DNA from: Blattabacterium cuenoti
GTDB lineage: Bacteria > Bacteroidota > Bacteroidia > Flavobacteriales > Blattabacteriaceae
Direction of reading: 5' to 3'
NCBI RefSeq assembly: GCF_014251555.1
Contig: NZ_CP059190.1
Span: forward strand, 11,673 to 75,672
DNA length: 64,000 nucleotides
Part shown: positions 49,048 through 53,968 of the stretch, piece after piece
How the letters are laid out: every line of letters begins with the position of its first letter
Position numbering within the stretch: the stretch's first letter is position 1
The notes under the pieces: model-generated
The model's database searches: none
The model's input: only the letters and a program-made list of their open reading frames with translations
What the model was told of the DNA's origin: nothing
Program-made: the position numbers and the translations under genes

Positions 49048-50247
49048 ATGAATTTACATGAATACCAAGGTCGAGAAATATTGAATTCTTTTTCAATTCA
49101 AGTTCCATATGGAATACTTGCTTCTTCTTCAGAAGAAGCTGTGGAAGCAGCAAAAATTATTTTTAAAAGAACTGGAAGAAAATCTTTGGTGATTAAAGCT
49201 CAAATCCATGCAGGTGGACGTGGAAAAGCTGGTGGTATTCAAATAGCGAAAACTTTAGATGAAGTTTATGAAAAATCGAAAAATATATTAGGAAAATTTT
49301 TAGTCACTCCACAAACTTCTAAAAAAGGAAAATTAGTTAGAAAAATATTATTATCTGAAGATATTTATTCTTACGAGTTTAATCCTCCTAGAGAATATTA
49401 TCTATCTATATTACTTAATCGTGACATAGAAAAAAATATGATAATCTATTCCAAAGAAGGAGGAGTCAATATAGAAGATCTTTCAAAAAAAAAACCAGAT
49501 AAAATATATACAGAAGAAATAGATCCAATATTTGGATTACAATTATTTCAAACTAGAAAAATAGCTTTTAATCTGGGGATGAATAATGATTCCTTAAAAA
49601 ATTTTAGTTCTTTTTTGATTTCTCTTTATGAAGCTTATAAAACTTGCGATGCTTTACTATTAGAAATCAACCCTTTAATAAAAACATTTGATAACAAAAT
49701 TATTCCTGTAGATATAAAAATTGTATTAGATGATAATGCTTTGTTTCGTCATAAGAAATATGCCATGATGTATGATCAAGAAGATCTTGATCTCATTGAA
49801 AAAGAAGCGAATGAAGCTAAGTTAAATTTTTTGAAATTGGAAGGAAACGTAGGATGTATGGTCAACGGAGCTGGATTAGCTATGGCAACTATGGATATGA
49901 TTAAATTTTGTGGTGGAGAACCTGCTAACTTTTTAGATATAGGAGGTTCTGCGGATAAAGAACGTGTAGAAAAAGCTTTTTATCTTATATTGAAAGATCA
50001 ATCTGTTAAAACAATATTAATCAATATATTTGGTGGAATAGTCCGTTGTGATACAGTAGCAAAAGGAATAATTAATTCATATTCTAAAATTAATCATGAT
50101 ATTAAAATTCCGGTGGTTGTTCGTTTACAAGGTACAAATGAGGAAATTGCAAAAAAAATCCTTCAAAAGAGTTTATTGCCCATTTATTCGACAGATACAT
50201 TGAAAGATGCTGCTGATAAAATTCAAGAAATTTTGCAGATAAGATAG
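49048..50247 (+). CDS. sucC: Succinyl-CoA synthetase beta subunit (ADP-forming)
   Basis: A 399-residue protein starting MNLHEYQGREIL, with an ATP-grasp domain (KAQIHAGGRGKAGGI; LLLEINPL) and a C-terminal CoA-ligase region (FLDIGGSADKERVEKAF; INIFGGIVRCDTVAKG). It makes succinate and ATP from succinyl-CoA, following SucAB. sucD is not adjacent. The stop is immediately followed by the dnaX ATG. ATG at 49048. Confidence 0.97.
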   Translation: MNLHEYQGREILNSFSIQVPYGILASSSEEAVEAAKIIFKRTGRKSLVIKAQIHAGGRGKAGGIQIAKTLDEVYEKSKNILGKFLVTPQTSKKGKLVRKILLSEDIYSYEFNPPREYYLSILLNRDIEKNMIIYSKEGGVNIEDLSKKKPDKIYTEEIDPIFGLQLFQTRKIAFNLGMNNDSLKNFSSFLISLYEAYKTCDALLLEINPLIKTFDNKIIPVDIKIVLDDNALFRHKKYAMMYDQEDLDLIEKEANEAKLNFLKLEGNVGCMVNGAGLAMATMDMIKFCGGEPANFLDIGGSADKERVEKAFYLILKDQSVKTILINIFGGIVRCDTVAKGIINSYSKINHDIKIPVVVRLQGTNEEIAKKILQKSLLPIYSTDTLKDAADKIQEILQIR

Positions 50248-51747
50248 ATGCTTATGAATAAAGTTTTTTCTAATAAAATTGTATTAACCGATAAATATAA
50301 ACCATTAAAATGGAATGATTTAGTGGGACAAGATAATATTTCTAGAACTTTAAAAAAGGCAATACAAGAAAATCGTTTATCTAAAGTTTTATTTTTTTTT
50401 GGACCAAAAGGAGTAGGAAAAAATGCATGTGCACATATTTTAGCGAATGAATTGAATTCTTTTTCAGAATTCAAAGATTTTTCTTTAAATACATTTGAGA
50501 TTAATGGTTTTTTTCACAATTCCTTGGAGGATATTTATAAAATTATTCATAAATCTCGCTCTTTCCCTAAAAAAGGGAAGTACAATATTCTTATTATTAA
50601 GGAAATACATAAATTTTCTAAAGATTTTTTTGATTTTTTCTTAAAATTTATAGAAGAAAAAAATACGCATATATTATTCATTTTTTTCGGAATAGAAGAA
50701 AAAATAGTTCCGGAATTTATTCTGTCACGTTGTCAAATTTTTGAATTTAAAAGTCTTTCTGTAAAAGACATTTTTTTTCATTTAAAAATGATTGCGGAAA
50801 AAGAAAATATAGAAGTAGAAAATGAAGCTTTATTGATTATTTCTAAGCATGTAGAAGGATCTCTTAGCAAAGCGATTCATTTATTTGATAGATTCATATC
50901 CAATGGAATAAAAATATCCAAATGTTATATAATGAATAAATTGGGAATAATTGATGTCAAGTTTTATTTTGAAATAGTAGATTCTCTTTTAGATAAAAAT
51001 GTTTATAAAACATTAACTCTGTTAAATCAAATTTTACAAAAAAAAATTGACTCTCATAATTTGGTAGTTGGATTAACCAAACATTTCAGAAATTTATTTT
51101 TTTCTAAAAATAATGAAACAATTTCCATTTTGAAATTTAAAAAGGAAATCATACAATCTTATATCGAACAATCAAAAAAAATATCTTTCTTTTTTTTAAT
51201 TCATGCTTTGAGCATTTTTCATCGTTTGGAAAAAGAATACAGATTAAACAATCAAAATTTCAGATTGTCAATAGAAATACATTTAATTCAATTAGCACAT
51301 TTTTTTTTCATTCATAAAAAAAATCATGAAAACTTTCTAAAAAAGAGTAAAGAATTTTCCTCTTATAAAGAGAATGAAAAAATTAATTTCTTACAAAAAA
51401 ATTGGATCAAATTTGTACAAAAATTTTCAGAAAAGATAAATCCTATTTATTTAGATTTTTTGAAAAATGAAATACAATTTAAAATTATAAAAAATAAAAT
51501 ATTTTTTATGATTCCTTGTAAATTGGAAAATAGAGATTTTTTATTCATTCAAACCAATTTTGAAAAATATTTCAAGAAAAAATTAAATAATCCACATTTG
51601 GAATTTAAAGTAATAAAAAAAGAATCAAAAGAATATCCAATAGAAAAGTACAATTTCTTGTCTCAAAAAAATAAATTAGTAAAAACATTAATAGAACGAT
51701 TAAATTTAAGAATATCTTCTTCACAAGAAGAAAAAAATCTTTTATAA
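50248..51747 (+). CDS. dnaX: DnaX-like clamp-loader subunit with degenerate ATPase motifs
   Basis: A 499-residue homologue of DNA polymerase III gamma/tau: KYKPLKWNDLVGQDNI is the canonical N-terminus, the SRC motif is kept (160-162), and the C-terminus ends like flavobacterial tau. Key ATPase residues differ. Walker A is GPKGVGKN (52-59), with Asn for the Mg-binding Thr. The Walker B box is KEIH (118-121) for DEVH. The zinc-binding Cys cluster after Walker A is missing. A function as an ATP-independent scaffold, like a delta-prime subunit, is possible. It begins directly after the sucC stop. ATG at 50248. Confidence 0.82.
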   Translation: MLMNKVFSNKIVLTDKYKPLKWNDLVGQDNISRTLKKAIQENRLSKVLFFFGPKGVGKNACAHILANELNSFSEFKDFSLNTFEINGFFHNSLEDIYKIIHKSRSFPKKGKYNILIIKEIHKFSKDFFDFFLKFIEEKNTHILFIFFGIEEKIVPEFILSRCQIFEFKSLSVKDIFFHLKMIAEKENIEVENEALLIISKHVEGSLSKAIHLFDRFISNGIKISKCYIMNKLGIIDVKFYFEIVDSLLDKNVYKTLTLLNQILQKKIDSHNLVVGLTKHFRNLFFSKNNETISILKFKKEIIQSYIEQSKKISFFFLIHALSIFHRLEKEYRLNNQNFRLSIEIHLIQLAHFFFIHKKNHENFLKKSKEFSSYKENEKINFLQKNWIKFVQKFSEKINPIYLDFLKNEIQFKIIKNKIFFMIPCKLENRDFLFIQTNFEKYFKKKLNNPHLEFKVIKKESKEYPIEKYNFLSQKNKLVKTLIERLNLRISSSQEEKNLL

Positions 51748-51850: not shown

Positions 51851-53968
51851 ATGATTCATCATTACTCGTCAAACAGTAGAAAAAAAATTTTTTTATCTTC
51901 TGCTTATTCAGATGAAGACATTGAAAATGATAGTTCTACTTCATCTCCTTACGGATCTGGAGGAAGTGGAACAGGTTCCGGTTATTATGGAGGAGCTTCA
52001 ATCAGAAGCAAAACTCCTGTTTTGGATAATTTTGGGAGAGATTTGAATGCTATAGCAATAAAAGGAAAATTAGATCCTGTAGTAGGGAGAGACAAAGAAG
52101 TAGAACGAGTTTCTCAAATATTGAGTAGAAGGAAAAAAAATAATCCTTTACTCATAGGAGAACCTGGAGTAGGAAAGTCTGCCATAGCTGAAGGATTATC
52201 ATTACGTATTGTGCAAAAAAAAGTTTCTAGAGTCCTATACAATAAAAGAGTAGTTGTTTTGGATTTAGCCAGCTTAGTTGCTGGAACTAAATATAGAGGT
52301 CAATTTGAAGAAAGAATTAAGGCAATTATAAATGAATCAGAAAAAAATGCAGATTTAATCCTTTTTATAGATGAAATTCACACTATAATTGGTGCAGGAG
52401 GAACCACTGGATCATTAGATGCGTCTAACATATTTAAACCTGCTTTAGCAAGAGGAGATATTCAATGTATTGGTGCTACTACGTTAAACGAATATAGACA
52501 ATATATAGAAAAAGATGGAGCTTTAGAGCGAAGATTTCAAAAAATTATAGTGCAACCTTCTTCTGAAGAAGAGACTATAGAAATTTTAAAAAAAATAAAA
52601 GGAAAATATGAAAGTCATCACAATGTACTTTATACAGAAGAAGCTATAAAAGCTTGCGTAAATCTTACTGTACGATACATAGTCGATCGTTATTTGCCAG
52701 ACAAAGCAATTGATGCTTTAGATGAAGCAGGATCTCGCGTTTATATCAAAAATATAAAAGTGCCACAAGAAATAGTTTTTCTAGAAAAAGAATTGGAAAA
52801 TATTCGTGAAGAAAAATCCAAAGTAGTCAAAAGCCAAAAATACGAAGAAGCTGCACGTTTGCGTGATACGGAAAAACGTATAGAAAAACAATTAATAAAA
52901 GCTCAAAAAGAGTGGGAAGAATCTTCTAAGGAAAATAAAGAAATCGTATCCGAAGAAAATGTTGAAGAAGTGGTATCTATGATGAGTGGAGTTCCAGTCA
53001 ACAGAATAGCTCAAGCTGAAATGAATAAGTTAAATAAAATGATAGATATATTAAAAGAAAAAATAGTAGGGCAAGATGAAGCAGTAGAAAAAATAGTGAA
53101 ATCAGTTCAAAGAAACCGAACTGGATTAAAAGATCCTAATTCACCAATAGGTTCTTTTATGTTTTTAGGACAAACAGGTGTTGGAAAAACTTATTTAGCA
53201 AAAATTTTTACAAGAGAACTATTTGATTCAGAAGAATCATTAATACGTCTAGACATGAGTGAATATATGGAAAAATTCTCTATTTCTAGGTTAATAGGAG
53301 CTCCTCCAGGTTATGTTGGTTATGAAGAGGGAGGACAATTAACAGAAATTATACGTCGTAGACCTTATTCTGTCATATTATTAGATGAAATAGAAAAAGC
53401 ACATCATGAAGTCTTTAATATTTTGTTGCAAATCTTAGATTACGGATGTGTAACAGATAGTATTGGAAGAAAAATTAATTTTAAAAATACCGTAATTATT
53501 TTTACGTCAAATACAGGGACACAACAATTAAAAGAATTTGGTCAAGGAATAGGATTCCATACTCAAGCAAGACAATCAAATAATTATATTAAAAATGTGT
53601 TAGAAAAAGCTTTAAAAAGAACTTTTTCTCCAGAATTTTTAAATAGAATAGATGATGTTATCATCTTTAATTCTCTAACACAAAAAGATATATCAAAAAT
53701 CACTCATATAGAATTAGAAAAAATAATACTTCATGTATCTAATCTAGGGTATAAATTAATTTTTCTTCCTGAAGTAGAAGATTTTATTAAAAATAAAGGA
53801 TTTGATCATGAATATGGAGCTCGTCCTTTAAAAAGAGTAATAGAAAAATTTATTAAAAATCCTATATCAGAATGTATAATTAGTGAAAAGTTAAAAAAAG
53901 GAAATCAAATCTTATTAAAGATGAATGAAAAAAACAACGATGTGAAAGTTTCTATTCAAAGAATATGA
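51851..53968 (+). CDS. clpC: ClpC-type Clp ATPase lacking the N-terminal domain
   Basis: A 705-residue AAA+ unfoldase (typical ClpC is about 810-850). D1 has Walker A GEPGVGKS (103-110) and IDEIH (173-177). A UVR-like coiled segment (KSQKYEEAARLRDTEKRIEK, about 327-346) follows. D2 has Walker A GQTGVGKT (440-447) and the ClpP-binding IGF loop at 565-567. The double Clp-N repeat domain is absent. Residues 1-50 are a Ser/Gly-rich linker (SPYGSGGSGTGSGYYGGAS), and the 103 bp upstream contain no domain remnant I can read. It should still load ClpP. ATG at 51851; its end overlaps nth by 4 bases. Confidence 0.93.
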   Translation: MIHHYSSNSRKKIFLSSAYSDEDIENDSSTSSPYGSGGSGTGSGYYGGASIRSKTPVLDNFGRDLNAIAIKGKLDPVVGRDKEVERVSQILSRRKKNNPLLIGEPGVGKSAIAEGLSLRIVQKKVSRVLYNKRVVVLDLASLVAGTKYRGQFEERIKAIINESEKNADLILFIDEIHTIIGAGGTTGSLDASNIFKPALARGDIQCIGATTLNEYRQYIEKDGALERRFQKIIVQPSSEEETIEILKKIKGKYESHHNVLYTEEAIKACVNLTVRYIVDRYLPDKAIDALDEAGSRVYIKNIKVPQEIVFLEKELENIREEKSKVVKSQKYEEAARLRDTEKRIEKQLIKAQKEWEESSKENKEIVSEENVEEVVSMMSGVPVNRIAQAEMNKLNKMIDILKEKIVGQDEAVEKIVKSVQRNRTGLKDPNSPIGSFMFLGQTGVGKTYLAKIFTRELFDSEESLIRLDMSEYMEKFSISRLIGAPPGYVGYEEGGQLTEIIRRRPYSVILLDEIEKAHHEVFNILLQILDYGCVTDSIGRKINFKNTVIIFTSNTGTQQLKEFGQGIGFHTQARQSNNYIKNVLEKALKRTFSPEFLNRIDDVIIFNSLTQKDISKITHIELEKIILHVSNLGYKLIFLPEVEDFIKNKGFDHEYGARPLKRVIEKFIKNPISECIISEKLKKGNQILLKMNEKNNDVKVSIQRI

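Follow-up and report, generated by a model that had tools for sequence, protein, structure and literature searches.

The window, a stretch of 64,000 nucleotides of Blattabacterium cuenoti DNA, is part of a genome assembled as a single contig of 638,736 bases. It carries dnaX, the gene of the DNA polymerase III gamma/tau subunit, between sucC and clpC, and the features of the locus are the following:

49048-50247, + strand: sucC, upstream neighbour of dnaX and synteny marker
50248-51747, + strand: dnaX, DNA polymerase III gamma/tau of 499 amino acids, an AAA+ protein without hydrolysis residues and with a tau-like tail
50293-50331, + strand: KYKP...GQ box, N-terminal nucleotide-pocket motif (residues 16-28; K16, Y17, P19, G27 and Q28 invariant)
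50401-50424, + strand: Walker A GPKGVGKN (residues 52-59; E. coli Thr52 replaced by Asn59, codon 50422-50424)
50581-50610, + strand: Walker B YNILIIKEIH (residues 112-121; E. coli Asp126 replaced by Lys118 at 50599-50601)
50680-50697, + strand: sensor-1 region IFFGIE (residues 145-150), from which the Thr is gone
50725-50733, + strand: SRC arginine-finger motif (residues 160-162, S160-R161-C162), intact in the window
50857-50874, + strand: sensor-2 motif GSLSKA in place of GSLRDA (residues 204-209; Arg replaced by Ser207)
50938-51303, + strand: domain III, the collar (residues 231-352; Y305, Q308 and E343 invariant)
51304-51396, + strand: short variable linker (residues 353-383), where the long tau domain IV would be
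51397-51744, + strand: tau-like C-terminal domain (residues 384-499)
51851-53968, + strand: clpC, downstream neighbour of dnaX and synteny marker

Homology of the window DnaX to gamma/tau models spans domains I-III (NF011531, E=2e-88), and its score against TIGR02397 is 219.5 bits, under the 250-bit cut-off of that model. The AlphaFold model of the protein has a pLDDT of 82 and superposes on E. coli gamma/tau, which also provides the top Foldseek matches, so the fold is retained, as a first-pass annotation of this DNA had proposed. The tau-like tail named in that annotation is likewise recovered, since residues 497-613 of NF011531, the Bacteroidetes gamma/tau model, align with it (E=0.002), as does the tail of DnaX from the relative G053 (E=1e-6). 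It is modelled with a pLDDT of 81, and its nearest E. coli tau domain V match in Foldseek is 5fku_E at a weak E=0.33, which is not a confident match. E. coli tau contacts alpha through domain V and DnaB through domain IV (PMC11470591, PMC11869525). A helicase-binding domain IV is not recognisable in the window DnaX, and the short linker of the Blattabacterium protein makes a helicase contact doubtful. In relatives the linker between collar and tail is enlarged by in-frame tandem repeats (L074, L075, L015, L022, L017), such as IQKKDSEKFP, which is present in about six tandem copies in G045.

Hydrolysis residues and nucleotide pocket of DnaX

Positions 50401-50427 translate as GPKGVGKNA, where the Walker A Lys is retained and Asn takes the Thr/Ser position of GxxxxGK[T/S]. 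The Walker B motif is IIKEIH, with Lys-Glu at 50599-50604, and departs from the hhhhDE pattern. In E. coli numbering, Thr52 is changed to Asn, Asp126 to Lys and Arg215 to Ser, the sensor-1 Thr is lost, and Glu127 and Arg169 are retained. The loss of key Walker A and Walker B residues that the first-pass annotation reported from GPKGVGKN and KEIH is verified and is common to the genus; KEIH was correctly placed near 50599, and the Asn codon, given there as 50425-50427, lies one codon upstream at 50422-50424.

The residues were surveyed in the 46 dnaX genes, from a total of 49 Blattabacterium genomes, whose ATPase domain can be read, and compared with five same-family symbionts (G049, G050, G053, G065 and G067) and with E. 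coli DnaX. The position of Walker A Thr52 is Asn in 41 genes, Ser in four and His in one, so a Thr or Ser identical to the canonical GK[T/S] pattern is missing in 42. Walker B Asp126 is replaced by Asn, Lys, Arg, Gln or His in 45/46, and the single DnaX that retains it has Asp instead of Glu at the next residue; Glu127 is retained in 7/46, and the Asp-Glu pair is intact in none of the 46. The sensor-2 Arg215 is lost in all 46. The SRC motif, correctly described in the first-pass annotation for the window DnaX, keeps its arginine finger (Arg169) in only 27 of the 46. Walker A, Walker B, the sensor-2 Arg and the SRC Arg are all canonical in E. coli and in 5/5 of the same-family relatives compared. 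Loss of the hydrolysis residues is a genus-wide change in Blattabacterium DnaX, and a change common to all Blattabacterium is therefore not an error in one genome; the base-error alternative raised in the annotation is ruled out by the 46 genomes. The zinc Cys cluster is absent from the window DnaX, as had been claimed, but same-family symbionts whose ATPase motifs are canonical lack it as well; its loss is therefore rejected as a part of the hydrolysis-loss event. DnaX is predicted to have no ATPase activity and not to load clamps.

The nucleotide pocket follows a different course. No change is reconstructed on the tree at K16, Y17, P19, G27, Q28, G52, G55, G57 and K58 of the pocket or at Y305, Q308 and E343 of the collar, and the P-loop residues G52, G55, G57 and K58 are unchanged in 46/46 Blattabacterium. 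With a mean entropy of 0.85, the P-loop block (residues 41-60) varies less than any other 20-residue block of DnaX. Against a median of 10 changes per site over residues 1-359, the hydrolysis residues have 10 and 14 changes (Walker B), 19 (sensor 1), 17 (arginine finger) and 9 (sensor 2). Pocket residues are unchanged while hydrolysis residues vary; nucleotide binding therefore remains under selection, and hydrolysis does not.

Partner subunits, polymerase and sliding clamp

A second dnaX is not found in the 638,736-base genome, where the other weak matches are short P-loop similarities in other proteins, including the neighbouring ClpC. The status of dnaX as the only clamp-loader motor gene, noted at first for the window, thus extends to the whole genome, and loading by a second DnaX is ruled out. 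No holA or holB is found in 49/49 Blattabacterium genomes, in which TIGR01128 and PF13177 match only DnaX or other proteins, and profiles built from the HolB and HolA of relatives match only DnaX, or nothing. The leave-one-out control of these profiles recovers every relative at about 1e-57 or better, so subunits hidden by divergence are rejected, and loading by another subunit, a further proposal of the first-pass annotation, is ruled out at the level of sequence. E. coli SSB and DnaQ, used as queries in a simple search of all six frames, gave no match.

Four same-family symbionts (G049, G050, G065 and G067) have a gamma-only DnaX of 341-357 amino acids, in which the tail is absent and the ATPase motifs are canonical, and they also have the clamp motif together with holA and holB, except holA in G065. 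In Blattabacterium and in these four symbionts, the coupling and loading functions of DnaX seem to have parted in opposite directions. In G049 and G050, holA is broken into two frames (L085, L038, L039 and L087 are the gamma-only DnaX loci).

DnaE is intact in 49/49 Blattabacterium genomes. Its aligned clamp-binding motif is missing in 39/39 of those examined, with a possible remnant in a few, such as TSLL in G026. Eight same-family symbionts, of which five have a canonical dnaX, do carry the motif (QASLFG in G053, QSLFS in G049); DnaE of the same-family G051 and G056, like that of Blattabacterium, is without it (L205, L211). The C-terminal domain of DnaE, which is the tau-binding region in E. 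coli (PMC11869525), is kept in Blattabacterium, also in genomes without dnaX, so this domain need not be there for DnaX. Clamp-binding pentapeptides in the proteome are not above chance (22 seen, 28 expected).

Family and profile searches do not recover the sliding clamp gene dnaN in eight Blattabacterium genomes, none of which retains a trace of it. The genes that flank it elsewhere, pdxH and pheT, are no more than about 300 bases apart in those dnaN-less genomes in which both are clear, and a hidden dnaN is rejected because profile and synteny are both negative. The eight genomes form one clade in the tree of dnaE, sucC and clpC, and dnaX frames of 459-492 amino acids persist in five of them (G010, G011, G015, G023 and G039). 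G025 is the reverse case, with dnaX deleted and dnaN intact. In genomes that retain dnaN its omega is mostly 0.16-0.45. The DnaN pocket is mostly intact despite a fixed change at E. coli Pro363, which is Ser in the 32/32 Blattabacterium DnaN with a readable C-terminus, and the pocket is therefore not decisive. The dnaN of the window's own genome, which lies outside the window (L246:14579-15831; genome about 607,578-608,830), is broken by a tandem duplication, out of frame and offset by 92 bases, which leaves frames of 156 and 261 amino acids. The gene is also interrupted in G016 and G032, and in the Periplaneta japonica symbiont dnaN has been listed as a pseudogene (PMC6039017).

Selection on dnaX and the proposed role of the retained protein

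The dnaX frame is uninterrupted in 42/49 Blattabacterium genomes. In G025 the gene is cleanly deleted, with 205 bases left between sucC and clpC; it is not found in G030, and in G038 it is reduced to residues 224-492, which comprise domain III plus tail. In G004, G009, G022 and G048 it is frameshifted directly before the tail, whose frame is still open (117-156 amino acids). The frameshifts in G004, G022 and G048 sit at runs of 11 A (loci L072, L032, L069 and L077, G009 included), and transcriptional slippage could possibly rescue these genes, as was proposed for Blochmannia dnaX (PMC3017870). Omega was calculated pairwise by NG86, and AT bias makes the ratios approximate. Most dnaX pairs give 0.2-0.5: the clade to which the window belongs has 0.22-0.31, and outside it values of 0.3-0.5 predominate, with 0.7 for the basal pair G006-G014. 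In the dnaN-less clade dnaX omega reaches 0.57-0.94, and some confidence intervals there include 1. The corresponding ranges are 0.13-0.37 for dnaE, 0.14-0.45 for sucC and 0.05-0.31 for clpC, and dnaX evolves at about 1.5-3 times the omega of dnaE or sucC. In a neutral simulation at dnaX composition, only 0.25% of runs (P=0.0025) keep the frame open once 0.05 substitutions per site have accumulated. These values point to a constraint on dnaX that is relaxed, yet real in most lineages.

We favour, with a probability of about 0.6, a reading in which the ancestor of Blattabacterium lost its working clamp and clamp-loader system and DnaX survives as a tau-like polymerase hub that holds nucleotide without hydrolysing it. 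The losses seen in sequence, namely of delta and delta-prime, of the beta-docking motif of DnaE and of the hydrolysis residues of DnaX, would date to this ancestor. DnaX would then bind nucleotide without turnover, pocket and collar would hold the AAA+ oligomer together, and the tau-like tail would tie the Pol III alpha subunits together. Where such a hub is dispensable dnaX would be in the course of loss, as in three lineages. Most genomes retain the beta clamp with no recognisable loader, and one clade has lost it. G038, which retains only domain III plus tail, is part of the evidence for the hub; against it stands the dnaX omega of the dnaN-less clade, which nears 0.6-0.9. Since dnaX is absent from G025 and G030, the hub is not essential everywhere. 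A more far-reaching proposal, which we hold only tentatively and with the odds somewhat against it, is that a clamp-free, loader-free replicase copies these chromosomes of 0.5-0.64 Mb, DnaX having been converted to a nucleotide-locked polymerase-coupling hub that gives processivity or coordination in place of the clamp.

The strongest competitor, unlikely in our judgement, takes DnaX for a slowly dying, functionless relic that drifts after the loss of holA and holB and is removed lineage by lineage. The deletion in G025, the absence in G030, the half gene of G038, the four frameshifted genes and the elevated omega, above all in the dnaN-less clade, are what this would produce. Drift, however, would hardly leave eleven or more pocket and collar sites unchanged over 46 species, nor 42/49 frames uninterrupted when a neutral frame stays open with P<0.01 after only 0.05 substitutions per site, nor an omega of 0.22-0.31 in the window's own clade. 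Weak remaining hydrolysis, with Asn or Ser standing in for Thr52 and, in some genomes, a neighbouring acidic residue for the Walker B Asp, has the least to recommend it: the window DnaX retains Glu119 and Arg161, Walker A has Ser in four genomes, and G023 combines GKS in Walker A with Asp-Asp in Walker B, but rates of change at Walker B, sensor 1, sensor 2 and the arginine finger are close to or higher than the DnaX average, which is unexpected if hydrolysis is selected.

Hardly more probable is that a homo-oligomer of DnaX, with neither delta nor delta-prime, loads clamps by binding ATP and nothing more. The intact P-loop and KYxP...GQ box agree with it, as does a dnaN that is intact and under selection in most genomes, but delta, the ring-opening subunit in E. 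coli, is missing, DnaE has no clamp motif and the proteome shows no excess of clamp-binding pentapeptides. Five dnaX frames exist without any clamp gene and G025 keeps dnaN without dnaX; clamp loading is therefore probably not what DnaX is retained for. The first-pass annotation was thus right about the lost hydrolysis residues and less so in assuming that clamps are still loaded; loading without ATP hydrolysis, which it had offered as one possibility, is unlikely as the retained function, and abandonment of loading fits better. With the hydrolysis residues, the partner subunits, the DnaE docking motif and, in one clade, the clamp itself gone, Blattabacterium seems to copy its chromosomes without loading clamps.

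Relation to known systems and significance

Delta-prime (HolB) and RFC subunit E are AAA+ clamp-loader subunits that work without hydrolysis. In Blattabacterium, by contrast, the motor subunit itself has lost the hydrolysis residues, and no active subunit remains. Compared with E. coli DnaX gamma/tau (PDB 8GIY, 3GLF, 1JR3), the same gene, domains I-III, P-loop, collar and C-terminal tail are present, but the Walker B Asp, the sensor-1 Thr, the sensor-2 Arg, the zinc cluster, the delta and delta-prime partners and the long domain IV linker are not. Other reduced insect symbionts have also lost clamp-loader genes, among them Sulcia and Uzinura, for which dnaX loss is published (PMC3971599), and Carsonella, which has lost dnaX, dnaN, holA and holB (PMC2175510); absence of dnaN is published for Sulcia and Carsonella (PMC3971599, PMC2175510). 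Unlike these, Blattabacterium has genomes of 0.5-0.64 Mb, most of which keep an altered, selected dnaX plus dnaN. Five Bacteroidetes DnaE1 without a beta-clamp motif were described by Timinskas et al. 2013 (PMC3919608), who left their processivity as an open question; in Blattabacterium the motif loss is tied, genus-wide, to the loss of delta and delta-prime and of the DnaX hydrolysis residues, and some of those five sequences may themselves be from Blattabacterium. A literature search, mostly outside subscription journals, found no paper on the altered Blattabacterium DnaX, and an earlier mention of dnaX or dnaN loss is possible.

Sliding clamps with ATP-driven loaders are regarded as common to all bacteria, and DnaX and HolA are listed as present in every one of them (PMC3290774). 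The about 49 species of Blattabacterium represent graded stages in the dismantling of the system, which include dnaX deleted with dnaN kept and dnaN deleted with dnaX kept, and these natural deletions separate the clamp-loading role of DnaX from its polymerase-coupling role. The question asked in 2013, what makes some Bacteroidetes polymerases processive when they have no clamp motif, becomes testable in Blattabacterium.
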